Below, piece after piece: positions 42,418 through 64,000 of a DNA stretch of 64,000 nt. Numbering within the stretch: position 1 is the stretch's first letter; each line of letters starts with the position of its first letter. Made by a program: the position numbers and the translations under genes. Source of the DNA: Nannocystis punicea (GTDB lineage Bacteria; Myxococcota_A; Polyangia; Nannocystales; Nannocystaceae); NCBI RefSeq assembly GCF_026965555.1, contig NZ_CP114040.1:9212001-9276000 (forward strand), written 5' to 3'. The notes under the pieces are model-generated. The model did no database searches, was not told the origin of the DNA, and worked only from the letters and a program-made list of their open reading frames with translations.

Positions 42418-43656
42418 TCACCGATTGAACGGTCGACTCGTCTCCTGAGCGAACCCGGCGAGCAGCTCCGCCGCCCGGGCCGCTCCACCCGCGCGATACA
42501 GCCCGTCGCCGGCCTCCTGGACTCGGGCCGCCATGTCCCGATCCGCGAGCGCTGCCTCGATTCGACCCTGGAGCGCCGCCGGTTCGCAGTCTTCGGCCCG
42601 CAGCCAGACGCCGAGACCCAGCGCCTCCATGTGCTCGGCGAAGATCGGTTGATCCGCACCCTGGGGGAGCATCAACATCGGCACCCCGGCGAGCAGGGAC
42701 TCGAACACGCTATTGGTCCCGGCGTGGGTGATGAAGACCGACGCGCGCTGCAGGACCGCGAGCTGGGGCACGTAGGGGCGGACCAGCGTGTGCGGGGGCG
42801 GCGGCTCGAGGGCGCTGGTGTCGGCAGCGCCCACGGCGACCACCGCGCCGTAGCGACCCTCCGCGAGCGCCTCGAAGACAGCGCGGAAGATGTCACGCCG
42901 GTCGTTGTAGAGCCGCATCGAGCCCAGCGAGGCGTAGACCAGCGGTCGAGGCAACGCGGCGAGCGCGGCGGTGAAGGCCGGGTCGTCGTCCGCGCTCCGT
43001 TCATCGTAGCAGGGGCCGACGAAGTGATAGCTCGCGTCGAACTCCGCGCGCCGCGGTTGCAGCTGCTCGGAGGTGTAGACGAGGTTGATGTCGCCGCGGA
43101 GGTTCATGCAATTGGGAATGCCGGGCAGGACATCGTCGCCGTGCGTGCGGGTGACCGCGAAGCGGTCGGCGCAGCGCGCCCAGGCCGCTCGATCGCGGGC
43201 CTCGATCCGCCCGATCTCCGCCTCGCTCCGACCCGGCCACCGCGCGGCGAAGACCGCCTCCGAGACCCGAGCTCCCCGAGGCCACAGGGCGTTGGTGTGC
43301 ACGACCGCGGTCGGCAACCCGCACAGCTCGGCGGCGATGGCGGCCCACAGGCACTTGGCGGTGTACACGACGAGCGCCGGCCGCAGCGCCCGCAACATCT
43401 CGACCAGCGCCGGGACCGCCTCCATCGAGTAGTCGATCGTCCGCAGGTTCACCGTGCAGTCCGGCGGCTCGTAGCCGAAGGGCGGCTGCAGCACGACCCT
43501 CGCGCCCGAGGCGGCCACGAGCTCACGGTAAGGCTCGAGCGTGAACGCGTGGACCCGATGACCGCGCTCGACCAGCGCGCGGACGATCGGCAGCGTCGTC
43601 ACGAGCCGCGAGTGGTAGGGGATGTCGAAGAAAGCGATGTCGAGACCGGTCGTCAT
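42418..43656 (-). CDS. UGT/MGT-type glycosyltransferase (GT1)
   Basis: The product is 412 residues. The N-terminal domain opens AFFDIPYHSRLVTTLPIVRA, the acceptor-side pattern of GT1 enzymes. The C-terminal donor site has YASLGSMRLY, then VRPYVPQLAVLQRASVFITH, HAGTNSVFESLLAGVPMLML and PQGADQPIF, as in macrolide-type glycosyltransferases that use NDP-sugars. The ATG at 43656 overlaps the TGA of the methyltransferase gene by four bases (ATGA), so the genes are translationally coupled. It probably glycosylates the cluster product or inactivates it inside the cell. Confidence 0.9.
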   Translation of the reverse strand: MTTGLDIAFFDIPYHSRLVTTLPIVRALVERGHRVHAFTLEPYRELVAASGARVVLQPPFGYEPPDCTVNLRTIDYSMEAVPALVEMLRALRPALVVYTAKCLWAAIAAELCGLPTAVVHTNALWPRGARVSEAVFAARWPGRSEAEIGRIEARDRAAWARCADRFAVTRTHGDDVLPGIPNCMNLRGDINLVYTSEQLQPRRAEFDASYHFVGPCYDERSADDDPAFTAALAALPRPLVYASLGSMRLYNDRRDIFRAVFEALAEGRYGAVVAVGAADTSALEPPPPHTLVRPYVPQLAVLQRASVFITHAGTNSVFESLLAGVPMLMLPQGADQPIFAEHMEALGLGVWLRAEDCEPAALQGRIEAALADRDMAARVQEAGDGLYRAGGAARAAELLAGFAQETSRPFNR

Positions 43657-44206
43657 GGTTCGCGCCTCGCGAGGGCCCACACGTGGTAGGGAAAATCTGG
43701 CTCATCGGTCAGGTCGTGGATCGCCGGGTCATAGACCACCCAATCGTCGAAGTTCGCGGCGACGCAGGCGCGGTTGCCCCACGAGCCGGTGCGGATCGGC
43801 GCCAGCGGGAAGCCGCACTCGTGCAGGAAGTGCTTGAGGCCGAGCTCGGTCCAGCGGGTGCAGTCGACCGGGTAGCGGTGCACCTTGACCAGGAACGGCA
43901 CCGACACGAGGAACCATCCGCCCGGCGCAGCATGTCGTGGACGTTGCGCCCGGCGCGGTATGGATAGAGCAGGTGCTCGAAGACCTGCTCGGCGATCACG
44001 AGATCGAAGGTCTCCGCCAGCGGACCGGCGCAGACGTCGAACTCGGGGAACTCGGCGCTGCGATAGCTGGAGAAGCCGAAGTCGCGCCAGCGCCGGCCGG
44101 AGATCTCGAGCGCGTCGAAGCCGGCGAACGGGAGCGACCGCAGCCACTCGTTGCACGCCTCGTTCATCACGATGCGGCTCCACGTCATCATCGATGGATT
44201 GGTCAC
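43653..44206 (-). CDS. SAM-dependent methyltransferase, frameshifted
   Basis: A GTG start at 44206 overlaps the ABC gene stop (GTGA). The first frame reads [20 protein letters not shown] (SAM loop), then [16 protein letters not shown], typical of class I methyltransferases. At about 43921-43925 the frame breaks: one extra C in CGCCGGGC restores [20 protein letters not shown] and the rest to the stop at 43653, about 184 residues. Since the gene is embedded in a tight operon with overlapping start and stop codons, a sequencing deletion seems more likely than a true null. Possible targets are an N- or O-site on the peptide or lipid product. Confidence 0.75.
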
Positions 44207-45834
44207 GGCGAAGCCTCCGGTGCGGGCGCACTCGCGGCGGCCGCGGCGGCGACCAGGCGACCGTCGTCCAGGTGCAGCCGGCGGTCGGCCAGGTGGAAGA
44301 AGCGGGCGTCGTGGCTGATGGCGATCACCGTCTTGCCCGCGGCGCGCATCTCGGGGACGAGCGTCTCGTAGAAGTAGCGGCGGAGCTCGGGGTCCTGGTG
44401 AGCCGCCCACTCGTCGAGGACGTAGATCGGCCGGTCCTCGAGCAGCGCGACCACCATCGCCAACCGCTTGCGCTGACCGGTCGACAGCTCGAGCGGGGCG
44501 AAGCGCCCGTCCTCGAAGCCCACGATCCCCTCGAGGTTGAAGCGGCGCAGCAGGGCCTCGACCCGCGCCGGGTCGGAGACGTCGAGGCCGTACGGCAGGC
44601 CGAAGAGGTGGTGATCCATGAAGACCGAGGTGAACAGGCCGCGGTAGGTCGCGCGCAGCTGCGGCGAGAGCGGACGCTCGTCGAGGCGGATCTCGCCGCG
44701 CTCGGGCGGATAGAGGCCGGTCAACAGCTTCATGAGGGTGGTCTTGCCGCTGCCGTTGCTGCCGGTGATGAAGACGACCTCGCCGCGGCCGATGCTCAGA
44801 TCCACGGGGCCGACCGTGAACGTGGGTCGACCCTCGTCGACGTAGCTGAAGGCCGCGCCGCGCAGCTCGATCTGCTCGAAGCTCGTCCGCAGCGCGGGCT
44901 CCGATTCGGCCGCGGCCCCGCGCCCGGCGAGGGCCTGCTCGAGCGCGTCCAGGCGGGCGAGCGCGGCCTCGGCGGTGGCGAACACGTGGAGCTCGCGGAC
45001 CAGATAGATGACGGCCGCGAAGCTCAGGAACAGCACGGTGACGACCTCGAAGCGGATCGCCGGCTCGATCGTCGTCTCGACCGGGCGAAACAGCAGGAAG
45101 CCGAGGAAGTAGATCGTCGTCGCCGTGACGGGCCCCTGGTACACCGACTTGTAATGGTGCCCCGCCGCCGCGTCGACCTCGCGGCCGGCGGCGAACGCCT
45201 CGGCCCGCAGCGCCGCACCGGCCGCGGGATCCATCTTGAGCTGGGCGAAGCCGCGGGTGAGCTGCTCGACGAGCCGTCGCCGGCGCGACCAGGCGTGATC
45301 GAGGACGACGCCCGTCTCTCGCGCGTCGCGTCGCTCGCCGTGTAGCCGCCAACCGAGCAGCGAGAGGGTCGCTACCCACACGAGCGCGCCCAGCGGCGCG
45401 AGCGCGGCGAGGTAGACGCCGAGCCCGATGAGCATCATGACGTAGACGAGGCAGTCGATGAGCACCGGCGTGACCGCCTCGAGCTGCTCGATGTCGCGGG
45501 TGAACCCGGCCGCGACGCCATCGAGCCGCTCGAAGACGCGGAGCTCGGCGGCGCGGATCCTGGCGAACAGCCGGCGACGGCGCTCGAACAGCGCGGCCTC
45601 GACCTGATTCATGATGCGCAGCGCCCCGCGCCAGCGCAGGACGAACCCGGCCGCGAGCAGCGCGGCGAATACGAGACCGGCGCCGATCTGGACGCCCGCC
45701 GTACTCGGGTGGAGCACGGTGCGGTTGAGCAGCGCGAGCTGCCCGGCGACCAGGAGCGCCGAGGCGGCGAGCATGACCAACCCGCGCCGCATCACCTGGC
45801 GAGCGTCGCCCGGGAACAGCTCCATCAGGCGCAT
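44203..45834 (-). CDS. Cyclic-peptide-type ABC exporter, fused TM-NBD (second)
   Basis: The product is 543 residues. Six TM helices in the first ~300 residues ([39 protein letters not shown]) are followed by an ABC ATPase with Walker [10 protein letters not shown] near residue 357, signature [11 protein letters not shown], Walker [15 protein letters not shown] and switch His AISHDARFF. The STGQRKR and DEWAA-QDP motifs mark the SyrD/PvdE cyclic-peptide exporter group. The ATG lies inside the end of the upstream ABC gene (10-base overlap) with GGAG seven bases ahead. It probably pairs with that protein to export the product. Confidence 0.9.
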
Positions 45835-47489
45835 ACCGGCTCCATCCTGCCGCCGTGGAAGTGAAACCGGCGGTCGCAGGCGTCGAACGCGTCGTCGTCG
45901 TGGGTGACGGCCACGACGGTCTTGCCGCGGGCGCGCAGCGACGGGAGGATCCGGCGGTAGAACGCCTCGCGGAAGTGCGGGTCCTGATCGGCGGCCCACT
46001 CGTCGAACACGTAGATCGGTCGATCCGCGAGGAGCGCGACGATCAGCGCCAGGCGCTTGCGCTGGCCGGTCGAGAGGTCGACGGTGGTGAAGCGGCCGTC
46101 CTCGAAGCGGACCTTGTGGCCGAGCTCCATCTCCTCGAGGAGCGCGGCGACCCGCGCCGGATCGACGTCCTCGATGCCGTAGAGGCGCTCGAACAGCGCG
46201 ACCTCGGCGAACACCGCGGCGAACCGGCTGCGCCACGCGGGGCCGGGGTCGGCGGGCAAGGCCTCGCCGTCGACCCGCAGCTCGCCGCCGTGGCGCCGGT
46301 AGAGCCCGCAGAGCAGCTTGATGAAGGTCGACTTGCCGCTGCCGTTGGCGCCGGTGACGAATACGACCTCGCCCGGGACGAGCTCGAGGTCGCAGGGGCC
46401 GACCGCGAAGCCTGCCCGGTCGTCGCGTGGCTCGTAGCGATAGCTGACCCCGCGGAGAGCCAGCGACGCGAACGGCTGCGGCGGCGTGCTCGCCTCGGTC
46501 CGCTGGTCGGCCAGGCCTTCGAGTCGATCGGCGAGGTCGATCATCCGCTGCCAGGTCGCGCCGAGCCGCGTGAGCAGCGGCGCGGCCATCAGCAGCATCA
46601 GCACGGGCCGGAAGATGAAGGTGACCGCGACCAGGAGCCGGCTGACCTCGGCGGCCGCGTCGGGCACCACCACCGGGAGGATGAAGCCGATCGCGGCGAG
46701 CAGCGCCAGGTAGACCTGGCGGGTCAGCGTGTCGCGGGCGAAGAACTCGGCGTGGTGGACGTCGCGGCTGCGCCGCAGGGCCTCGGCCTCGCGCTCGAAG
46801 GTTGCGGCGACCGCCGCGCTGCGGGCCCCGTGCTGCTTCAGCTGCTTGAAGCCGGCCAGCAGGTCGTCGATGGGCTCCTGCATGCGGCGGAGGGCGGCCC
46901 GATCGCGGGCCATCTGGTCGGCGACCGCGTGATCGATCCGGGCGATGAGGAGCGCCGTCGCCACCATCGCCACGCCTGCCACCAGCGCCGCTTGCAGCGA
47001 GATCGTCGCCACGTAGAGGGTGGACAGCGCCACCGTCGCCGCGGCCACGAGCGCCTGCGTGACGATCGTGCCGCCGGGGATGATGCGACCCGCGTCGCCG
47101 GTGACCCGGCCGACGATCTCGGCGCCGCCGATCGCCTCGAAGCGCTCGAGATCGAGGCGCCCGGTCGCGTCGAGGACCCGCTCGGTGGTGCGCGACACGG
47201 CCGCGGTGAGGGCGTCGAGGACCCGCTGCGAGAGGGCTCCCTGGTAGCTCGCGTTGACCGCGACCGCCACCACGAAGGTGAGCAGGGCGCCGATGGGCAG
47301 GCCGACGTCGGCCGCGGCGTCGAGACCCTGGTCGACGCTGTGGAGCACCAGCACGTTGGCCGCCGCGACCAGGCCGATCTCGACCGCCCACGTCCGGTGC
47401 GAACGACCGTCCTCGGCGACGATGAGCGCGAGCAGGCCGCCGACGCTCGCGCGCGCGTCACGGCCCGAGTCTGCGGTCGGCCCGGTCAT
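45825..47489 (-). CDS. Cyclic-peptide-type ABC exporter, fused TM-NBD (first)
   Basis: The product is 554 residues. TM helices ([59 protein letters not shown]) precede an NBD with Walker [10 protein letters not shown] near residue 380, signature [11 protein letters not shown] near 470, Walker [15 protein letters not shown] near 490 and [13 protein letters not shown]. This is the SyrD/PvdE/YojI type that exports peptide natural products. It and the next gene are similar but not identical, as expected for a heterodimer. No N-terminal C39 peptidase domain is present, so leader removal must be done by another enzyme. Confidence 0.9.
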
Positions 47490-47761: not shown

Positions 47762-48664
47762 TCACGGTGCGCTCCCCGCCCCCGGGCCCGGGGCAGCTGG
47801 AGCCGCTGGAGCGTCGGCGCCGAGGATCACCGGGAGCTGGCCGTCGCCGCTCCCCATCAGGATGACCTTGCTGTTCGCCGAGGTCGCGAGCTTCTCGGTC
47901 GCCTCGATCCCGCGCCACTTGAGGATCGACAGCCCGCTGACCGCCTCGAACTCGTGGATCCCCTCGGCCTCGGTGGTCCGGCGGATCTTCTCCAGCTCCT
48001 CGCGCTCGAGGCGGAACTTGTAGCTCAGCATCTGCTGCTCCTCCGCGAGCTTGGCCTGGATCGCGGCCTCGACCGCTTCGGGGAGGCGGAGGTCGAGGAC
48101 GAGGACCGACACCAGCGCGAAGAAGCGCGGGTCGAGGTCCTTCTCGAGCGTGCGTCGCAGCTCGTCGAGCAGGCCGAGCTCGTCCTTGGCGTAGATCATC
48201 TCGGGCGTGTAGTTGCCGAGCACCTTGCGCAGCGTCGAGGTGGTCTCGGGCACGATCACCTCGTCGACGAAGTTGGGCCCGATCTCCTTGTGAAACAGCG
48301 GCAGGTCGGCCTCGAGCAGGTGGAACCGGACCGACATGTTGACCGTGATCTCGAGCCCGTCCTGGGCGTAGACCACGGTCGTCGGCCGGCTCTGCAGGTC
48401 GCGCAGGTCGTAGACGTAGAGCTTGTCCCACGGCCAGGTGAGGAGCGTGCCCTCGGCGAACGATCGCTCGGTGACGGTGCCGCCGCCGAAGCGCTTCCAC
48501 AGCACGGCGCGGTGGCCCGGGAGGATCTCGTGCACGATGTCGTCGAAGAAGAACGAGGCGACGAGGAGGACGACGACGAGCAGCGTCTTCGTCCACCAGA
48601 CCAGCTGACGCCAGAGTCTGAGGCCCAGGCGCTTCAGGCGGCCGGAGGAGGTCGTCGCTGCCAT
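47762..48664 (-). CDS. SPFH/prohibitin-family membrane protein
   Basis: The product is 300 residues. One N-terminal TM helix (WWTKTLLVVVLLVASFFF) leads to an SPFH/Band-7 domain (ILPGHRAVLWKRFGGGTVTE, then PWDKLYVYDLRDLQSRPTTV and GLEITVNMSVRFHLLEADLP), followed by a long helix rich in Glu/Arg/Ala (EAAIQAKLAEEQQMLSYKF) that usually drives oligomerisation. The C-terminus is a Pro/Ala/Gly tail. SPFH proteins form ring or cage scaffolds in membranes. Its position between DUF697 proteins and exporters suggests it organises export or protects the membrane from the product. Confidence 0.85.
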   Translation of the reverse strand: MAATTSSGRLKRLGLRLWRQLVWWTKTLLVVVLLVASFFFDDIVHEILPGHRAVLWKRFGGGTVTERSFAEGTLLTWPWDKLYVYDLRDLQSRPTTVVYAQDGLEITVNMSVRFHLLEADLPLFHKEIGPNFVDEVIVPETTSTLRKVLGNYTPEMIYAKDELGLLDELRRTLEKDLDPRFFALVSVLVLDLRLPEAVEAAIQAKLAEEQQMLSYKFRLEREELEKIRRTTEAEGIHEFEAVSGLSILKWRGIEATEKLATSANSKVILMGSGDGQLPVILGADAPAAPAAPGPGAGSAP

Positions 48665-48691: not shown

Positions 48692-49252
48692 TCACTGGGG
48701 CGCCTTGCCCTTGAGGTCCTTGAGGACCGTCCTGCCGGCCTCGACCTGCGCCTGGAAGTAGTCGCGGAACTTCTCCGGGTCGAAGTCGAGGAAGGTCCCG
48801 CCGGAGCCGAAGTGGGCGGTGAAGACCCGGCCGATCGCGTAGATCAGCGAGCCGGCGAGGGCCGGCGAGGCGGCGGCGGCGAGCGGGACGCCGACGATCG
48901 GGATCACGCGCACCAGCGAGTACGCGGCCGCGGTGGCCAGCGGCGCCGAGGCCCCGCCGAGCAGCGCGGTGACGGCCGACTTGCCGATGTGCCCGCGGAA
49001 TTCGACCCCGTAGTAGCGGGCCAGGCTGTGCAGCATCTTCAGCGCGCATCCGCTGGTCGTGGCGAAGTCGAGCAGGGGGACCGGGAGGATCGCCAGACCC
49101 GCGCCGATCTTCGTCCACCGCAGCACGATCGCGTCGGCGCCGCTGGTCGGCGGCAGCTTGCGGCCGGTCGGATCGCACGCGGCCTCGGGCCTGCGCCCGC
49201 CCGGGTCGGTGGTGTCCGTGGTCTTGGTGGAGGGAGTGGTCGTGTCGGGCAT
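48692..49252 (-). CDS. DUF697-like membrane-associated protein (second)
   Basis: The product is 186 residues from the ATG at 49252 with GGAG upstream. A Thr/Pro/Asp N-terminus leads to a DUF697-like core: KIGAGLAILPVPLLDFATTS, then ALKMLHSLARYYGVEFRGHI and two hydrophobic segments (PLATAAAYSLVRVIPIVGVP, ALAGSLIYAIGRVFTAHF). The C-terminal helix FDPEKFRDYFQAQVEAG is shared with the neighbouring paralogue. These proteins sit at membranes; function unknown. The gene is a tandem paralogue of the next one upstream. Confidence 0.75.
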   Translation of the reverse strand: MPDTTTPSTKTTDTTDPGGRRPEAACDPTGRKLPPTSGADAIVLRWTKIGAGLAILPVPLLDFATTSGCALKMLHSLARYYGVEFRGHIGKSAVTALLGGASAPLATAAAYSLVRVIPIVGVPLAAAASPALAGSLIYAIGRVFTAHFGSGGTFLDFDPEKFRDYFQAQVEAGRTVLKDLKGKAPQ

Positions 49253-49266
49253 CGTCGTCTCCGAGG

Positions 49267-49848
49267 CTATGGGGTGAACGGTCGCTTGGACCCCGACTGC
49301 GACGGCTTGCCGCGCCGGATCTCCTCGACCACCAGCTTGTTGCGCGCGAACTCCTGCCGGAAATGGTCCCGCATCGCCACCGCGTCGAAGTTCAGCAACG
49401 TGCCGCCCGACTCGAAGTGCATCATGAAGACGTTGCCGACCGTCTGGGTCAGCGCCGCGGCGGCGATCGGCATCGCCACCAGGCCGAACGCGGGGCCGAG
49501 CGCGGGGACGAGCTTGAACACGCTGGCGACGAACGCGTAGGACAGCGTCTGGGCGCCGAGGGCCGCGATCAGCGAGCCGACGATCGCGCGGGAGCGGCTC
49601 TCCGAGAACTCGACGCCGTAGACCTGCGAGAGGTCGCGGATCATCTTCAGCTGGGAGGCGAGCACGCCGGCGGCGTCGACGAAGGGGATCGGGATCGCGC
49701 CGAGCCCGAGCGACCAGTACACTTGCCGCCGGATCAGCTGCCTGGCCTGCTCGCCGCGAGTGTCGGCCAGATCCGTCAGGACGGCCGTGTCTGCTGCGTC
49801 GGGGGGTTCGACCTTCGACTCGACGGTGGGCGGCGTGACTGACGACAT
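49267..49848 (-). CDS. DUF697-like membrane-associated protein (first)
   Basis: The product is 193 residues from the ATG at 49848 (MSSVTPPTVESKVEPP), with GAGGAG about five bases upstream; the frame stays open further upstream but crosses the hairpin. The core matches the paralogue: LGLGAIPIPFVDAAGVLASQ, QLKMIRDLSQVYGVEFSESR, two hydrophobic segments, then HFESGGTLLNFDAVAMRDHF. It is the first gene after the precursor peptide. A pair of DUF697 proteins plus SPFH may form a membrane assembly for maturation, export or self-protection. Confidence 0.75.
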   Translation of the reverse strand: MSSVTPPTVESKVEPPDAADTAVLTDLADTRGEQARQLIRRQVYWSLGLGAIPIPFVDAAGVLASQLKMIRDLSQVYGVEFSESRSRAIVGSLIAALGAQTLSYAFVASVFKLVPALGPAFGLVAMPIAAAALTQTVGNVFMMHFESGGTLLNFDAVAMRDHFRQEFARNKLVVEEIRRGKPSQSGSKRPFTP

Positions 49849-49871
49849 TTCGGCTCCTCGCGAACGACGAT

Positions 49872-49915
49872 AAAAACTCGGGGAGGTGATGGCGCGTGCG
49901 GATGCACGCGCCATC
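49872..49915 (-). terminator. Hairpin between peptide gene and DUF697 gene
   Basis: GATGGCGCGTGC and GCACGCGCCATC form a perfect 12-bp stem with a four-base loop (49888-49915), seven bases after the tandem stop codons of the peptide gene. A TTTTTA tract follows 11 bases beyond the stem and lies just before the next ribosome site. It is a candidate partial terminator or RNA-stabilising stem that would make the peptide transcript more abundant than the downstream genes. Confidence 0.65.
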
Positions 49916-49923
49916 GTCCACTA

Positions 49924-49989
49924 CTACCAGTAGCGGTTGGTGTTGAGCTTGCGGTCGGCCACGGTGATGGTCTTGATGGTCTTCTTCAT
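49924..49989 (-). CDS. 21-residue RiPP precursor candidate ending in Arg-Tyr-Trp
   Basis: The product begins MKKTIKTITVADRK and ends LNTNRYW, followed by two tandem TAG stops. Support is strong for so small a gene: GGAG nine bases before the ATG, a TTGACA-type promoter about 90 bases upstream, a stable hairpin right after the stops, and a position at the head of an operon with peptide exporters. In crocagin biosynthesis the C-terminal Ile-Tyr-Trp of a tiny precursor, CgnA, becomes a pyrroloindoline. A Tyr-Trp C-terminus beside two paralogous candidate peptide-binding proteins suggests the same chemistry here with core Arg-Tyr-Trp. The Lys/Thr/Ile-rich start would be the leader. The alternative is a regulatory leader peptide. 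Confidence 0.8.
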   Translation of the reverse strand: MKKTIKTITVADRKLNTNRYW

Positions 49990-50052
49990 GGTTTTACTCT
50001 CCGGACATTCCGTTGCGCGCAGAAACACTCTACGCGAAAGAAAGTCGGGCTC

Positions 50053-50082
50053 AAGCTATCTCGGTCGTTCAAACGATGTCAA
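50053..50082 (-). promoter_or_regulatory. Sigma70-like promoter for the peptide operon
   Basis: On the minus strand a perfect TTGACA (50077-50082) is followed after 18 bases by TAGCTT (50053-50058), or after 16 bases by GATAGC. Either gives a plausible -10. The start site would lie about 50 bases upstream of the peptide ribosome site. Confidence 0.5.
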
Positions 50083-50116
50083 CGATCATTTTGCACCGAC
50101 GGGCCCCTTTGCTGCG

Positions 50117-50166
50117 TGTAAGCGCATTACAGGCGGCTCATCGCGCTGTAAGTGCATTGCAAGCGG
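50117..50166. promoter_or_regulatory. Two operator-like dyads 30 bp apart
   Basis: TGTAAGCGCATTACA (50117-50131) is a perfect TGTAA-N5-TTACA dyad, and TGTAAGTGCATTGCA (50147-50161) is a near copy. The homology extends to 20 bp (…GGCGG and …AGCGG) with three mismatches. The 30-bp spacing places both on nearly the same face of the helix. Lying between divergent operons, they probably bind a dimeric regulator of the cluster. Confidence 0.6.
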
Positions 50167-50183
50167 GCACGACCAGTCGACAG

Positions 50184-50198
50184 TGAAATATCATTTCA
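50184..50198. promoter_or_regulatory. TGAAAT-N3-ATTTCA dyad
   Basis: A 15-bp perfect inverted repeat lies in an AT-rich patch about 75 bases upstream of the rightward operon's first start codon. It may be an operator or overlap the rightward promoter. Confidence 0.45.
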
Positions 50199-50272
50199 GC
50201 TTCAAATGTTCGTTCGCCTCGGATAACTTCCGCGGGCGCTCGGGCTCCGCTCGCTCGCGCGAATACACTGTC

Positions 50273-51235
50273 ATGCAGGCGACCACCTTCTTCAAGCGAC
50301 TGTTCGATCGCACCATGCCGGTCCTCGTCGACGACGCGCGGCACCTGCCGTTCCTCGCCCGGCGGGGCTTCACGGCCCGCCCGATCGGCGACTTCGACTT
50401 CGCGTCGACGACGGCGCAGCCGGTCTTCGTCATCTTCACCGAGGCGGCCGCCCACGAGGCGTTTCTGCAGCGGTGGGGCGAGATTCCGGGGATCACCGCG
50501 CACCTCTCGCTGGCGAAGTTCGACACCTCGCCGGAGATCATCGAGTACTCGATCGACCAGCTGCTGGACATCGACTTCGCGGCCACGCTCGCGCGCAGGA
50601 GCGCGCATTACGACGCGATCCTCTCGTGCGACTACGCCGAGGTCACGCCGCCGCACGGGCCGCTGCGGTGCTCGATGGGCGAGTCGGTCGAGATCGCCAA
50701 CCGCGACGACGAGATGGAGCCCGGGTGGCTGTACTCGGTGTCCGAATTCCTCGAGGCCTCTCTGGTCAACATCGAGCGCGACCGCTCGACCTTCTGCCTC
50801 GACGGCGAATTCGCGTTCGACGGCCTCATCTATCTGTTCAACAACCCCGAGCTGCGCAGCCGCGTCGGCTGGATGCTCGAGGAGTGGGTGCGTCTCGCCG
50901 CGCGCGGCGGCAACTCGGCCACCCTGGTGGGCAACAGCGTCACCCGCCTGACCCTCGGCGGGCTCGACCGGACCGAGCAGCTGTTGGAGCTCACGGGCGG
51001 CAAGGAGCGCCAGAGCGCCGCGACCGAGTTCGCGTTCGGCTGCGTCGACTACTCGCTCGCGGCCCAGGACTGGTCGCGCAACTCGGTGATGCACGAGAGC
51101 TTCTGGGGGATCCACGTCGGCATCGGGATGGGACAGGACATCCCCCACTTCGACCTGATCGCCCGGCGCGCCGAGTGCCGCCACCTCCATCTCGAGCCGG
51201 CGTCTCCGGCCGAGCACGCGCCGCCCCCCGCGTGA
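50273..51235 (+). CDS. Candidate precursor-binding protein (CgnB/CgnE-like), first
   Basis: The product is 320 residues. The start at 50273 is chosen because MQATTFFKRLFDRTMPVLVD aligns with the start of its paralogue at 60996 (MNTSDYFRALQAGRVTIVVD). Shared blocks are SVSEFLEASLVNIERDRSTF, followed by FDGLIYLFNN, and a C-terminal GIHVGIGMGQDIPHFDLIA. The C-terminal pattern recalls M29-type aminopeptidases, but the metal-ligand set looks incomplete, so binding rather than hydrolysis is likely. In crocagin biosynthesis the homologues CgnB and CgnE bind the precursor and guide ring formation. That assignment here is inferred from pairing and context. It is the first gene of the rightward operon. 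Confidence 0.65.
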   Translation: MQATTFFKRLFDRTMPVLVDDARHLPFLARRGFTARPIGDFDFASTTAQPVFVIFTEAAAHEAFLQRWGEIPGITAHLSLAKFDTSPEIIEYSIDQLLDIDFAATLARRSAHYDAILSCDYAEVTPPHGPLRCSMGESVEIANRDDEMEPGWLYSVSEFLEASLVNIERDRSTFCLDGEFAFDGLIYLFNNPELRSRVGWMLEEWVRLAARGGNSATLVGNSVTRLTLGGLDRTEQLLELTGGKERQSAATEFAFGCVDYSLAAQDWSRNSVMHESFWGIHVGIGMGQDIPHFDLIARRAECRHLHLEPASPAEHAPPPA

Positions 51236-51271: not shown

Positions 51272-59289
<8,018 letters not shown>

Positions 59290-59293
<4 letters not shown>

Positions 59294-60999
59294 GCTTCGA
59301 TCTGCCCAGCCTCGCGCGCCTGTTGGTGCTCAGCGCTGGTTACTGGGCGCTGGACGTCGCAGTTCGCCGCGGCCTGCTGCACCGGCTGGCCGACGCCGCG
59401 GGCCGACGTCACCGCGCGCTCGCCCCGGCCCTGGGGGCCGGCGGCCTGGCGGTGCTGGTGGCGACATGTCCCTGGGAACATGTCCCGCAGGTCGAGGTCG
59501 CGCGGGTGTTGATGCTCGGTCTGAGCGTCATGTTGACCTGGAAGGTCGTCACCAAGGACCTCGATCCGGCGATCGGCGAGAGCCACGCGGGGGCGCGGCT
59601 CGCCATGCTCGGCGCCTGCGTCGGCCTGTGGTTCAGCCCGGCGTTCGTGCTGGTGGTGTTGCTGCAGCTGACGCGGCCGTTCGCGCAATGGCGACACCAC
59701 GCGATCCTCCCCCTGCGCTCGCTGCAGGCGGCCGCGGCGTTCGTCGCCGTCGCCCAGCTGGCCGCGCCGCTGCCTGACTTCGCGGCCGCCTACGCGCCGG
59801 ACGCCGCGACCCTGCTGTTCTTCGTCCTCACGATCCACGCCTCGCACTACGTCAGCGCCGGCCTCGCCAAGGTCCGACTGGGCGACCGCTGGTACTCGTG
59901 GGTCCGCGACAATCGCCTGCACTACATGGCCGCCAACGCCTACGCGTGGGGCTGGGGTCGCTTCGTCTCGTGGCCGACCTGGCGCAGGTTCGTGCGGCTC
60001 ATCGCGCGCGGCGACCGCCCGCTGCAAGCCGGCAGCCTGGCGCTCGAGCTGCTGGCGCCGCTGGCCCTGCTCGCGCCCGAGGCCGCGCTCCTCGCCTGCG
60101 CCGCGTGGTCCGCCTTCCACCTCGCGGTCCTCGCGTGCGGCGCGTTCTGGTTCTGGGACTGGGTCGGCGCCAACCTCGTGCTCGCGCTCGCCCTGCTCGC
60201 GCTGCCCGAATCGCAGTACGGCGCGCTGTTCGGCTGGCAGTCGGTGCTGGCGTCGGTCGCCTTCATCGCCGTGTTTCCGCTGCGCAACCGCCTGTGGGGG
60301 CCGACGCTGCTCGCGTGGTGGGAGACCCCCTTCACCCAGCGGATGCACTGGCTGGTGCGCGGGGAGAGCGGCACGACCTACGAGGTCTACAGCGACTTCA
60401 TGTGCCCGCACGAGCGGCTGTACGGCAAGGTCCACGCCTGCTTCCTCGCCCCGGTCCCGCTGATCACCTCGCACCTCGGGACCGTCTGGGACGCCGCGCA
60501 TCGGGACGCAGTGTGCGCCGCCGGGCCCGAGCCGCAGGGGCTCGACGCGGTGCGCGCTCGCTTCGGCGTCCAGCCGCGCGACGAACGGCTGGCGCGCAAC
60601 CACGTCGACTACCTGCATCGATTCTTCGGCTCGCTCAACGCCGGCGCGCGCAAGCACGTCCTGCCCGCGTGGCTCCGCTGGCTCAAGGCGCCCGGCGGGC
60701 ACTACTATTATTGGGGCGACCTGCCGGCGTTCCGCGGCCAGGAGCGGGTGGTCGCGGCCAGCCTCCGGTTCCGTGAGCAGTACTTCGACGGCGAGCAGCT
60801 GGTCTCGATCCGCGACGAGCTGGTGCAGGAGCTCGTGATCGACGAGGCCTCGGCGCGGCGGCCGTGCGAGCCGGAGCCGACGTCGCGGGAGGTCGAGCTG
60901 CTCCTGGGCGCGGCCTTCTGGCGCAGCGAGCCCCTGGACTACCACGCGATCCCGAAGGCGCCGACCGGCGCGCGGCTCGAAGAAGCGAGGGCGAAATGA
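59290..60999 (+). CDS. HTTM/vitamin K carboxylase-like membrane protein
   Basis: The product is 569 residues. The ATG overlaps the megasynthase stop (ATGA). The first ~350 residues hold many TM helices, with the HTTM-like stretch HYVSAGLAKVRLGDRWYSWV and ANAYAWGWGRFVSWPTW. The C-terminal ~200 residues are soluble (TYEVYSDFMCPHERLYGKVH, then GGHYYYWGDLPAFRGQE). HTTM proteins are related to vitamin K-dependent gamma-carboxylases, but most bacterial ones have unknown chemistry. A role in modifying or transferring the lipid or peptide product at the membrane is likely from context only. Confidence 0.65.
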
Positions 61000-61907
61000 A
61001 CACGAGCGACTACTTCCGCGCGCTGCAGGCCGGGCGCGTCACCATCGTCGTCGACGATCCCGCGGCCGCCTCGCCGTGGCTCGACCTCGGCGAGGTGACG
61101 ACGCTCGCCGCCTACGACCTGCTCCGCGAGCACGACCGGCCCGCGCTCGTCGTGGCCTCGCGGCTCGAGACGGTCGGCCGGCTCCACGAGACGTGGGAGG
61201 ACTCGCCGTGCGAGTTCACCTACCTCTCGCTGGCTCGCCACGACCCGAGCGAGGCGGCCGCCCGCCACGCCGCGGCGCTGCTGCGGGCGCTCGACGGCCC
61301 GGCCGCCCTGACGCTCCGCGCCGAGCGCTACGACGCGCTGCTGTCGAGCGACGTCCTCGAGGTCGCCGGGTCGCTGCGCGTGCGCCTCGGCGGCGAGCTG
61401 GAGATCGCCAACATGAGCGACGAGGTCCGGCCTCACTGGCTGCAATCGACGACCGAGTTCCTCGAGGCCTCGATCGTCAACCTCGAGCGCGACGGCTCGA
61501 GCTTCACCGCCGACGGCGTGTTCGCCTTCGCCGGCCTCGCCTACCTGTGCAACTCGGCGGACGTGCACGGCCGCCATGGCGACGCGCTGCGGCGATTGCT
61601 GCGAGCGGCGGCCGGCGGCGACAACCGCCTCGAGCTCGCCGACAACCGCGTCGAGCGCGTCGTCGTCGGCGGGGTCGACGTGACCGCCGCCTTCTCCGCG
61701 CTGTTCGCCGACGACGAGCGCGGCGCGACGGTGCTCGAGCTCGGCCTCGGCTGCGCCGGTCTCGCCCCGGACTGGACGATCGACTCGCCGCTCCACAAGG
61801 GCAGCCGCGGCCTCTTCCTCGGCGTCGGCACCGGCCATCGCGGGCCGCACGTCGACTTCGTGGCGCCGGAGGCGAGCGTGCGCTTCCAGGAGCCGCCGGC
61901 AGCGTGA
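60996..61907 (+). CDS. Candidate precursor-binding protein (CgnB/CgnE-like), second
   Basis: The product is 303 residues. The ATG overlaps the stop of the HTTM gene (ATGA). It is a paralogue of 50273-51235: LEIANMSDEVRPHWLQSTTE, FLEASIVNLERDGSSFTADG and the C-terminal SRGLFLGVGTGHRGPHVDFV all have counterparts there. Compared with the paralogue the N-terminal half is shorter and more diverged, which fits two distinct roles on one precursor, as reported for CgnB and CgnE. M29-aminopeptidase-like ancestry is possible from the HVDF motif. Function is inferred from context. Confidence 0.65.
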   Translation: MNTSDYFRALQAGRVTIVVDDPAAASPWLDLGEVTTLAAYDLLREHDRPALVVASRLETVGRLHETWEDSPCEFTYLSLARHDPSEAAARHAAALLRALDGPAALTLRAERYDALLSSDVLEVAGSLRVRLGGELEIANMSDEVRPHWLQSTTEFLEASIVNLERDGSSFTADGVFAFAGLAYLCNSADVHGRHGDALRRLLRAAAGGDNRLELADNRVERVVVGGVDVTAAFSALFADDERGATVLELGLGCAGLAPDWTIDSPLHKGSRGLFLGVGTGHRGPHVDFVAPEASVRFQEPPAA

Positions 61908-61918
61908 GGCCCACGTCG

Positions 61919-63253
61919 ATGCGACGGTTCAGGACCACGCCGCAGGAGCTCGACGGCACCCCGCCCGGGCTGCCGTACATCATCGTCAACGAGGCCGCGG
62001 AGCGCTTCAGCTACTCCGGCATGAAGACGATCCTCGTCGTCTTCATGACGACATACCTGGTCGATCGGACAGGGGCCCTCGCCCCGCTGTCGGGCGCCGA
62101 GGCCAAGGGCTGGTACCACGCCTTCGCCAGCGCGGTCTACTTCTTCCCGCTGCTCGGCAGCCTGCTCGCCGACGCGTTCCTCGGCAAGTACCGCACGATC
62201 TACTGGCTCTCGCTCGTCTACTGCCTCGGGCACCTCGCCCTCGCCGTCGACGGTACGCGCCTCGGGATCGTCCTCGGGCTCGCGCTTATCGCCGTCGGTT
62301 CGGGCGGGATCAAGCCGTGCGTGTCGGCGCACCTCGGCGACCAGTTCGGCCAGCGCAACCAGCACCGGCTCGAGCGCATGTTCACGTGGTTCTACTTCGC
62401 CATCAACATCGGCAGCATGCTGTCGATGCTGGCGACCCCGTGGCTGCTCGAGCGATTCGGGCCCCACGTCGCGTTCGGCGTGCCGGGGCTCTTGATGCTG
62501 CTCTCGACGGTCGTGTTCCGCGCCGGGCGCGACGTGTTCGTCCATGTGCCGCCGGGCGGCCTCGCGTTCCTGCGGCAGACCTTCGGCCGCGAGGGGCTGG
62601 CGAGCGTGAGCGCCCTGCTGCTGCTCTACGGCTTCGTCGCGGTGTTCTGGGCGCTGTTCGCCCAGACCGGCTCGGCGTGGGTCCTGCAGGCGCAGCGCAT
62701 GGATCGGGTGCTCCTCGGGGTCGAGCTGCTGCCGGCGCAGGTCCAGGCGGTGCAGCCGATGTTCACCCTCGCGCTGCTGCCGTTCTCCACCTACGTGCTC
62801 TACCCGGCGATGCGGCGGTCCTTCGCGCCGACGCCCGAGCGCCGGATCGGCCTCGGCATGGCGCTGATGGCCCTCGTATTCCTGCTGCTGGCGTGGATCG
62901 AGGCCCAGCTCGGCGCCGGAGCCACGCCGTCGATCGCCTGGCACCTGCTCGGTTACCTCATGATCGCATTGGCCGAGATCCTGGTCGCGGTCACCTGCAT
63001 CGAGCTGTCTTACCGGCGCGCGCCCCGGCACATGAAGTCGTTCGTCATGGCGGTCTTCGCGTTCAGCGTGTCGCTCGGCAACCTCTTCACCAGCGCGGTC
63101 AACCTCTTTGTCGTCGACGAGGCCGGCGCCCCGCTGTTGACCGGCCCGACCTACTTCCTGTTCTTCGCCGGCCTGATGGCGCTCGCAGTGCTGCTCTACG
63201 TCCCCTTCGCGCGCTGGTTCGCCGGGCGCCCGGCCCCGGCGCTCCACCGTTGA
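61919..63253 (+). CDS. POT/PTR2-family peptide transporter
   Basis: The product is 444 residues, starting 11 bases after the previous stop. NEAAERFSYSGMKTILVVFM is the ExxERFxYYG motif of proton-dependent oligopeptide transporters, and LIAVGSGGIKPCVSAHLGDQ with FTWFYFAINIGSML are the two PTR2 signatures. About 12 TM helices are evident. POT proteins move di- and tripeptides with protons. In this cluster it could retrieve or expel a tripeptide-sized product or leader fragment, complementing the ABC exporters. Confidence 0.9.
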   Translation: MRRFRTTPQELDGTPPGLPYIIVNEAAERFSYSGMKTILVVFMTTYLVDRTGALAPLSGAEAKGWYHAFASAVYFFPLLGSLLADAFLGKYRTIYWLSLVYCLGHLALAVDGTRLGIVLGLALIAVGSGGIKPCVSAHLGDQFGQRNQHRLERMFTWFYFAINIGSMLSMLATPWLLERFGPHVAFGVPGLLMLLSTVVFRAGRDVFVHVPPGGLAFLRQTFGREGLASVSALLLLYGFVAVFWALFAQTGSAWVLQAQRMDRVLLGVELLPAQVQAVQPMFTLALLPFSTYVLYPAMRRSFAPTPERRIGLGMALMALVFLLLAWIEAQLGAGATPSIAWHLLGYLMIALAEILVAVTCIELSYRRAPRHMKSFVMAVFAFSVSLGNLFTSAVNLFVVDEAGAPLLTGPTYFLFFAGLMALAVLLYVPFARWFAGRPAPALHR

Positions 63254-63273: not shown

Positions 63274-64000
63274 ATGCTCGACCACGACACCCTCCAATCC
63301 GAGAAGCTCCAATTCTGGCGCGACGGCTTCGTCGTCGTGCGGAACATGTTCACGCGCGACGAGATGGCGGTCGTCAAGCGCAAGGTCGCCGAGATCGAGG
63401 CGATGAACGCACGAGTGGACCACCTGCGGACGCAGCAGGCGCTGGGCGAGCACCCCTCGTTCGAGACCATCTTCGTCTGGAACGACGTCGTCGGCGACGA
63501 CCTCTTCGCCAAGATCGGCCGCTCGTACAAGATCCTCGACCGCCTGTCGCACTATTACGAGGACGACGTCTACGACTATCACAACAAGATCGTGCTCAAG
63601 TACCCGGGCATCGTCGGCTTCCGCCCGCACCAGGACTACGCGTATTGGCAGGGGTACGGGTGCCGCTTCCCCGAGGCGCACGCGGTGTTCGTGGCGGTCG
63701 ACGCGGCGACGCGGGAAAACGGCTGCCTCAAGCTCGTCCCGCGCTCGCACCTCCTCGGCACCCTGCCCCACGGCGGCTGGAGCGCCCGCGGCAGCGACGA
63801 CGGCGTCCTGCCGGAGGAGCTGGAGGCGCTGTTCGCCAGGGGCTACGCCTTCGAGCCGATCGAGGCCGAGCCGGGCGACGCGATCCTGTTCCACGGCAAC
63901 ACCATCCACGGCTCCGACGACAACGGCTCCGACCAGCCGCGGATCGCCATGGTCGCGACCATGAACACACGGCGCAACAGCCCCGATCCGCGGCACAATC
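63274..64000 (+). CDS. PhyH-type Fe(II)/2-oxoglutarate oxygenase, partial
   Basis: The frame starts at the ATG at 63274 (GGAG nine bases upstream) and is still open at the window end after 242 codons. It opens LQFWRDGFVVVRNMFTRDEM, typical of PhyH. Iron ligands are seen in FRPHQDYAYW (His ~119, Asp ~121) and NTIHGSDDNG (His ~212), with a 2-oxoglutarate-binding Arg in SDQPRIAMV (~223). Such enzymes hydroxylate or oxidatively cyclise substrates. It is a candidate for oxidising the Tyr or Trp of the precursor, or the acyl chain. The C-terminus lies outside the window. Confidence 0.85.
   Translation, partial: MLDHDTLQSEKLQFWRDGFVVVRNMFTRDEMAVVKRKVAEIEAMNARVDHLRTQQALGEHPSFETIFVWNDVVGDDLFAKIGRSYKILDRLSHYYEDDVYDYHNKIVLKYPGIVGFRPHQDYAYWQGYGCRFPEAHAVFVAVDAATRENGCLKLVPRSHLLGTLPHGGWSARGSDDGVLPEELEALFARGYAFEPIEAEPGDAILFHGNTIHGSDDNGSDQPRIAMVATMNTRRNSPDPRHN

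Follow-up and report, generated by a model that had tools for sequence, protein, structure and literature searches.

A crocagin-type RiPP locus of Nannocystis punicea with an Arg-Tyr-Trp precursor core and a megasynthase that may acylate it

The window, by which we mean the whole 64,000-nucleotide stretch of Nannocystis punicea DNA that was analysed, contains a 21-codon gene whose product ends in Arg-Tyr-Trp and resembles CgnA, the crocagin precursor. The gene and its putative expression signals are as follows.

49924..49989, minus strand: precursor peptide gene (CgnA-like), product MKKTIKTITVADRKLNTNRYW; leader residues 1-18, core Arg-Tyr-Trp
49997..50002, minus strand: ribosome-binding site GGAGAG, 7 nt 5' of the ATG, assigned from sequence
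49888..49915, minus strand: 12-bp GC-rich hairpin directly 3' of the precursor stop
50117..50166, no strand: two direct repeats TGTAAGYGCATTRCARGCGG, spaced 30 nt, in the divergent promoter; operator candidate

The translation MKKTIKTITVADRKLNTNRYW comes from the frame 49989..49924 (minus) and is followed by TAGTAG. The ribosome site, the tandem stops and the stable downstream hairpin named in the sequence-only reading of this DNA were all recovered, with the hairpin (49915..49888) having a minimum free energy of -27.6 kcal/mol and a z-score of -4.4 (0 of 200 shuffles were as stable). The consensus -35 element that had been placed upstream did not hold up, as a sigma-70 scan of the divergent region 49800-50350 found no promoter-like site. 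No intrinsic terminator by consensus was found, and the precursor hairpin lacks an immediate T run; it likely sets the ratio of precursor to downstream expression. The two 20-nt direct repeats, 85% identical to each other, lie between the precursor and the cgnB-like gene and are possible regulator sites. A comparison with Rfam returned nothing meaningful.

Short frames are common, and this, together with the missing sigma-70 promoter, might favor the view that the 21-codon frame stayed open by chance within a promoter region. We compared it with CgnA, taking as reference the 21-residue precursor MKKTIKQISAGDRSKKGNIYW from the crocagin locus of genome G514, which has basic residues at the published positions. 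In a gap-free alignment anchored at the C-terminus, the two peptides of equal length are identical at 12 of 21 residues, including K2, K3, K6, R13, N18, Y20 and W21. Because no other short frame of the 80-kb stretch gives more than 4 identities and 40 triplet-shuffled sequences reach maxima of 4-7, a chance frame is excluded. In addition, the precursors of all three loci compared (the window, G218 and G514) have an RBS-like motif and a strong hairpin 3' of the stop. The shuffle and three-locus comparisons refute the chance frame, whose probability we consider negligible; the earlier claim of a real gene stands.

Downstream of the precursor, seven minus-strand genes follow, including two ABC exporters, in agreement with the proposal that it heads an operon with peptide-type exporters.

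49267..49848, minus strand: DUF697 protein a, 58% identical to one beside the G218 precursor
48692..49252, minus strand: DUF697 protein b
47762..48664, minus strand: SPFH/Band 7 protein
45825..47489, minus strand: ABC exporter 1 (cyclic-peptide exporter-like), 38% identical to an ABC protein of the crocagin locus
44203..45834, minus strand: ABC exporter 2 (cyclic-peptide exporter-like)
43653..44188, minus strand: methyltransferase-like gene, interrupted near 43925 by a one-base frame slip
42418..43656, minus strand: MGT-type glycosyltransferase

The best NCBIfam models for the two exporters include TIGR01194, the cyclic-peptide exporter family, just under its cut-off. The frame slip near 43925 could reflect either an error in sequencing or a genuine loss, and the methyltransferase of the G218 locus has no close match in the window's genome.

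Across the divergent promoter, the plus strand carries the two proteins that most clearly define the class of the locus.

50273..51235, plus strand: CgnB-like peptide-binding/cyclising protein with all six zinc ligands intact
60996..61907, plus strand: CgnE-like peptide-binding protein, metal site lost at CgnE's two positions (K268, F274)

The first matches PDB entry 6zsv with E 6.9e-96 and CgnE (6zsu) with 1.9e-67; the second matches CgnE with 3.6e-59 and 6zsv with 9.9e-55. Entry 6zsv was deposited as an uncharacterised protein, and the protein at the CgnB position of the crocagin locus has the sequence aligned there. The text of PMC10070186 gives the zinc ligands of CgnB as E161, E252, E274, H280, H291 and D293, two of which are lost in CgnE (E274K and H280Y). 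The B copy of the window keeps all six (E161, E252, E275, H281, H292 and D294), so that its dinuclear zinc site is predicted to be intact; its E copy has K268 and F274 at exactly the two positions lost in CgnE. In a tree, the B copies of three genera form one group and their E copies another, and a single duplication therefore explains both. The profile search that had been suggested as a check of both flanking proteins thus returned clear homologues with the expected metal-site pattern and orthologous grouping. Judged by its precursor and its B and E proteins, the locus is close to certain to be a crocagin-type RiPP locus, as had been proposed.

Twin B/E proteins occur in 3 of 318 genomes of the class: the window's, G218 and G514. 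G218 is a Polyangia metagenome-assembled genome of the same family as the window genome (contig JAUHWG010000008.1, L004), and its CgnB and CgnE proteins are 66% and 49% identical to those of the window. G514 is an 11.4-Mb single-contig genome with the crocagin locus, which we take to be an apparent Chondromyces crocatus because its genes match the published crocagin cluster. A fourth genome among the 318 has a single distant copy. A distant single-copy CgnB relative with its C-terminal metal ligands kept was observed in G341 (Polyangia) at L013:9472-10836. The twin proteins are absent from the six other genomes of the window's genus, and no plasmid-borne relatives were found.

The short, lysine-rich precursor with a C-terminal Tyr-Trp is conserved in G218, which belongs to another genus; a search of related clusters for the YW ending had been suggested as a check. 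The refuting conditions set beforehand that can be judged from sequence therefore do not apply. Its precursor MTKKTPKTVTPTDRKQNGNRYWKNPKSVSSTDRKTNANRYW, just upstream of its cgnE, contains two copies of TDRKxNxNRYW (TDRKQNGNRYW and TDRKTNANRYW) within one peptide, each ending in RYW. Since the first core is internal, a cut after its Trp would be needed for the usual chemistry. The replacement of Ile by Arg before Tyr-Trp, another of the earlier claims, is real in both RYW loci. These two loci also have in common two POT transporters, DUF697 and SPFH proteins, and paired ABC exporters. At the nucleotide level, the G218 precursor occupies L004:7426-7551 as two repeated leader-core units, each ending in NRYW; a protein with a MACPF domain and hemopexin repeats (L004:5558-7114) lies just before it.

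Beyond what had been noted before, a polyketide synthase with an unpartnered C domain travels with this locus.

51272..59293, plus strand: megasynthase FAAL-ACP-KS-AT-ACP-AMT-C, 2673 aa, ending 28 aa after the C-domain match, HHLVVDG intact

The KS, AT, ACP, aminotransferase lysine and HHLVVDG motifs are all intact. No adenylation module follows the terminal C domain, and a search of the 80-kb region recovered no amino-acid adenylation domain, FAAL being the only adenylate-forming match there. The assembly line of G218 reads ACP-KS-AT-AT-DH-ER-KR-ACP-C-A-PCP, then KS-AT-ACP-AMT-C. The AMT-C parts of the two RYW loci are 64% identical, the next best match among the 318 class genomes being at 45%, and in each protein the chain ends 16-28 residues past the C-domain match, no A domain following. 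Behind the C domain of the other AMT-C loci of the class, an A domain continues in 14 of 16 (among these, G435 is cut by the contig end, but its A-domain match begins there); of the two that remain, G461 shows its next A domain only in a later frame, and the stretch read from G470 contains none. As in known hybrids of polyketides or fatty acids with RiPPs, an acyl synthase is here clustered with a RiPP precursor, and the annotated genes of this cluster include no lanthipeptide-class synthetase.

Alternatively, the product of the megasynthase could be a separate one. Two pathways, one for a crocagin-type RiPP and one, independent of it, for a beta-amino-acyl polyketide, would then be interleaved, their products unjoined, with the C domain using another amine, for instance that of a small polyamine or of an NRPS partner encoded at another place in the genome. 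Enzymes with AMT or AMT-C are widespread (34 of 318 genomes of the class) and nearly all AMT-C proteins feed NRPS modules; moreover, the crocagin locus has no PKS-sized gene in the 38 kb read, and the G218 megasynthase lies ~13 kb from its B/E genes. In the window, however, the cgnB-like and cgnE-like genes flank the megasynthase within a single strand-run of genes whose ends overlap; by far the nearest relative of the megasynthase's AMT-C is that of the sole other RYW locus, and no partner NRPS module is nearby. On balance we regard two unjoined pathways as unlikely.

The remaining plus-strand genes follow the megasynthase, with a candidate leader peptidase beyond the end of the window.

59290..60999, plus strand: polytopic membrane protein, its start codon overlapping the megasynthase stop; no Pfam or NCBIfam match
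61919..63253, plus strand: POT-family peptide transporter 1, 69% identical to one in the G218 locus
63274..64000 (gene to 64128, beyond the window), plus strand: PhyH-type Fe/2-oxoglutarate dioxygenase, candidate for the CgnC role
67259-68959 (L002:5260-6960), downstream of the window, no strand given: M3 oligoendopeptidase, candidate leader peptidase

The membrane protein has relatives at 47-50% in four other Polyangia, but their contexts are without an evident biosynthetic cluster and so give no functional clue. Further downstream, a second, weak PhyH protein (L002:8407-9300) and a radical SAM protein followed by a VWA-like protein (L002:9638-10825) were observed, at about 70406-72824 in window numbering; they possibly belong to another pathway.

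Of the crocagin-locus proteins read, only B, E and the ABC protein have matches among the window genes, with CgnC matching weakly. The CgnD leader hydrolase and the CgnL N-methyltransferase are without a match, these two being marks of crocagin itself and not of crocagin-like clusters. A close CgnC orthologue, the lack of which had also escaped the sequence-only reading, is absent from the window's genome (best match 53 residues at 38%). The window PhyH and CgnC belong to the same Pfam family and have the HQDY-Y-Q motif in common, but the profile match spans no more than ~104 columns, those surrounding the HxD...H core. In G218, by contrast, a CgnC orthologue is encoded (L010:14735-15643) that shares 53-54% identity with the enzyme of the crocagin locus. 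Given how distantly the window PhyH is related to CgnC, the chemistry of ring formation may not be that of crocagin. It is therefore conceivable that the crocagin-like precursor and binding proteins serve a PhyH that installs a different oxidation, giving a core other than the crocagin tetracycle, which would be compatible with acylation of that core. Set against the distant oxygenase are its shared family and motif, the full conservation of the metal-binding B copy, and that of Tyr and Trp, and we hold a different oxidation to be somewhat unlikely.

The missing CgnC orthologue and the frame-slipped methyltransferase might also be read as signs of decay, the locus being a silent relict that lost both functions and makes no product. 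Against decay, the precursor, B and E genes, the transporters and the whole 2673-aa megasynthase are intact with all catalytic motifs, and a single-base slip can be a sequencing error; we find this explanation very improbable.

The M3 peptidase, which stands where crocagin has CgnD and was likewise not part of the earlier reading, is 56% identical to the one directly before the G218 megasynthases, at most 48% to all others found and 38% to its paralogue in the same genome. M3 oligoendopeptidases are usually general peptidases.

Following from the precursor, the B/E pair with its metal-site pattern, the intact megasynthase motifs and the co-inheritance of megasynthase and M3 peptidase, all of which are read from the DNA itself, we propose the following pathway. 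The precursor consists of the leader MKKTIKTITVADRKLNTN and the core Arg-Tyr-Trp. The CgnE-like protein would recruit the core and present it to an Fe/2-oxoglutarate dioxygenase, probably the PhyH protein at 63274-64128, which by analogy with the published route would hydroxylate Tyr and Trp. The zinc-binding CgnB-like protein could then catalyze an elimination and the Tyr-Trp ring closure to a pyrroloindoline-type tetracycle; for the metal-binding B copy, the elimination step has been proposed in the text of PMC10070186. The M3 oligoendopeptidase would cut before Arg in place of CgnD. In parallel, FAAL might load a fatty acid, KS-AT-ACP extend the loaded chain once, and the aminotransferase convert the beta-ketone to a beta-amine. 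The terminal C domain would transfer the resulting beta-amino acyl chain to the freed alpha-amine of Arg, where it would take the place of crocagin's N-methyl cap. Finally, the glycosyltransferase might decorate the product, and the ABC and POT transporters could move it.

Acylation of Arg by the C domain is inferred because of the co-inheritance and the missing downstream module. Several points count against the pathway as a whole: in the stretch read, the unrelated AMT-C protein of G470 likewise has no A domain behind its C domain, no close CgnC orthologue is present although G218 has one, the M3 family is mostly one of general peptidases, and the methyltransferase gene is frame-slipped. Overall, we assign a probability of roughly 0.58 to the full reading, in which a crocagin-type RiPP has its freed Arg N-terminus acylated by the terminal C domain. 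The product of the cell is probably a new hybrid in which a ribosomal peptide alkaloid is combined with a fatty amino acid chain. We see an even chance that it is a new kind of polyketide-RiPP hybrid, in which the terminal C domain of a PKS takes a ribosomal peptide, and not a carrier-bound amino acid, and puts a beta-amino fatty acyl chain on the Arg N-terminus of a crocagin-type pyrroloindoline tripeptide, with G218 working alike through a PKS-NRPS line and a two-core precursor. Calculated by hand, the unacylated RYW tetracycle would have an [M+H]+ of 538.241, the +13.979 shift used being the one that also reproduces the published 495.2238 of the IYW core.

To our knowledge, no product of its class other than crocagin has been characterised, and exactly what roles CgnB and CgnE play is still under study. 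The Arg at the variable position, the non-orthologous oxygenase, the other peptidase and the twin-core precursor of G218 offer material to separate these roles. If the C domain does acylate a ribosomal core, this would constitute a new way of joining assembly-line and ribosomal chemistry, which could be of use in the engineering of lipidated RiPPs.

Iturin- and mycosubtilin-type beta-amino fatty acid synthases have the order acyl-AMP ligase, ACP, KS, ACP, AMT, C. The megasynthase has a similar domain order, but their C domain feeds NRPS modules and here none follows. Compared with crocagin itself (the cgn cluster of Chondromyces crocatus, PMC10070186), the locus likewise has a 21-aa lysine-rich precursor ending in xYW, the CgnB zinc site, a CgnE with ligands lost at the same two positions, an Fe/2OG PhyH-fold oxygenase in the cluster, paired cyclic-peptide-type ABC exporters and a hairpin after the precursor. 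It differs in its core (RYW instead of IYW), in a PhyH that is not a close CgnC orthologue, and in lacking matches to other crocagin-locus proteins (CgnD, the methyltransferase); it adds the M3 peptidase, the MGT glycosyltransferase, POT transporters, SPFH and DUF697 proteins, and the PKS with its terminal C domain. The other mined crocagin-like clusters, for which the text of PMC10070186 describes five architectures, likewise have twin B/E copies, a conserved YW with a variable preceding residue, and glycosyltransferases, the latter in all crocagin-like clusters except crocagin itself. Because its B and E genes lie 9.8 kb apart, and those of all twin-copy cases reported in the main text of PMC10070186 lie less than 2.1 kb apart, our locus does not fit those cases; that main text makes no mention of a polyketide or condensation enzyme, and our literature search found no paper joining crocagin, pyrroloindoline and polyketide. 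The closest parallel in outcome would be the goadvionins and other lipolanthines, which PMC10435860 presents as hybrids of a polyketide- or fatty-acid-derived chain with a ribosomal peptide, an acyltransferase condensing the two moieties in goadvionin (Kozakai 2020, cited in PMC10435860). Unlike those lanthipeptide-class RiPPs, the peptide here is of the crocagin type, and the candidate for the joining is a condensation domain borne by the PKS.
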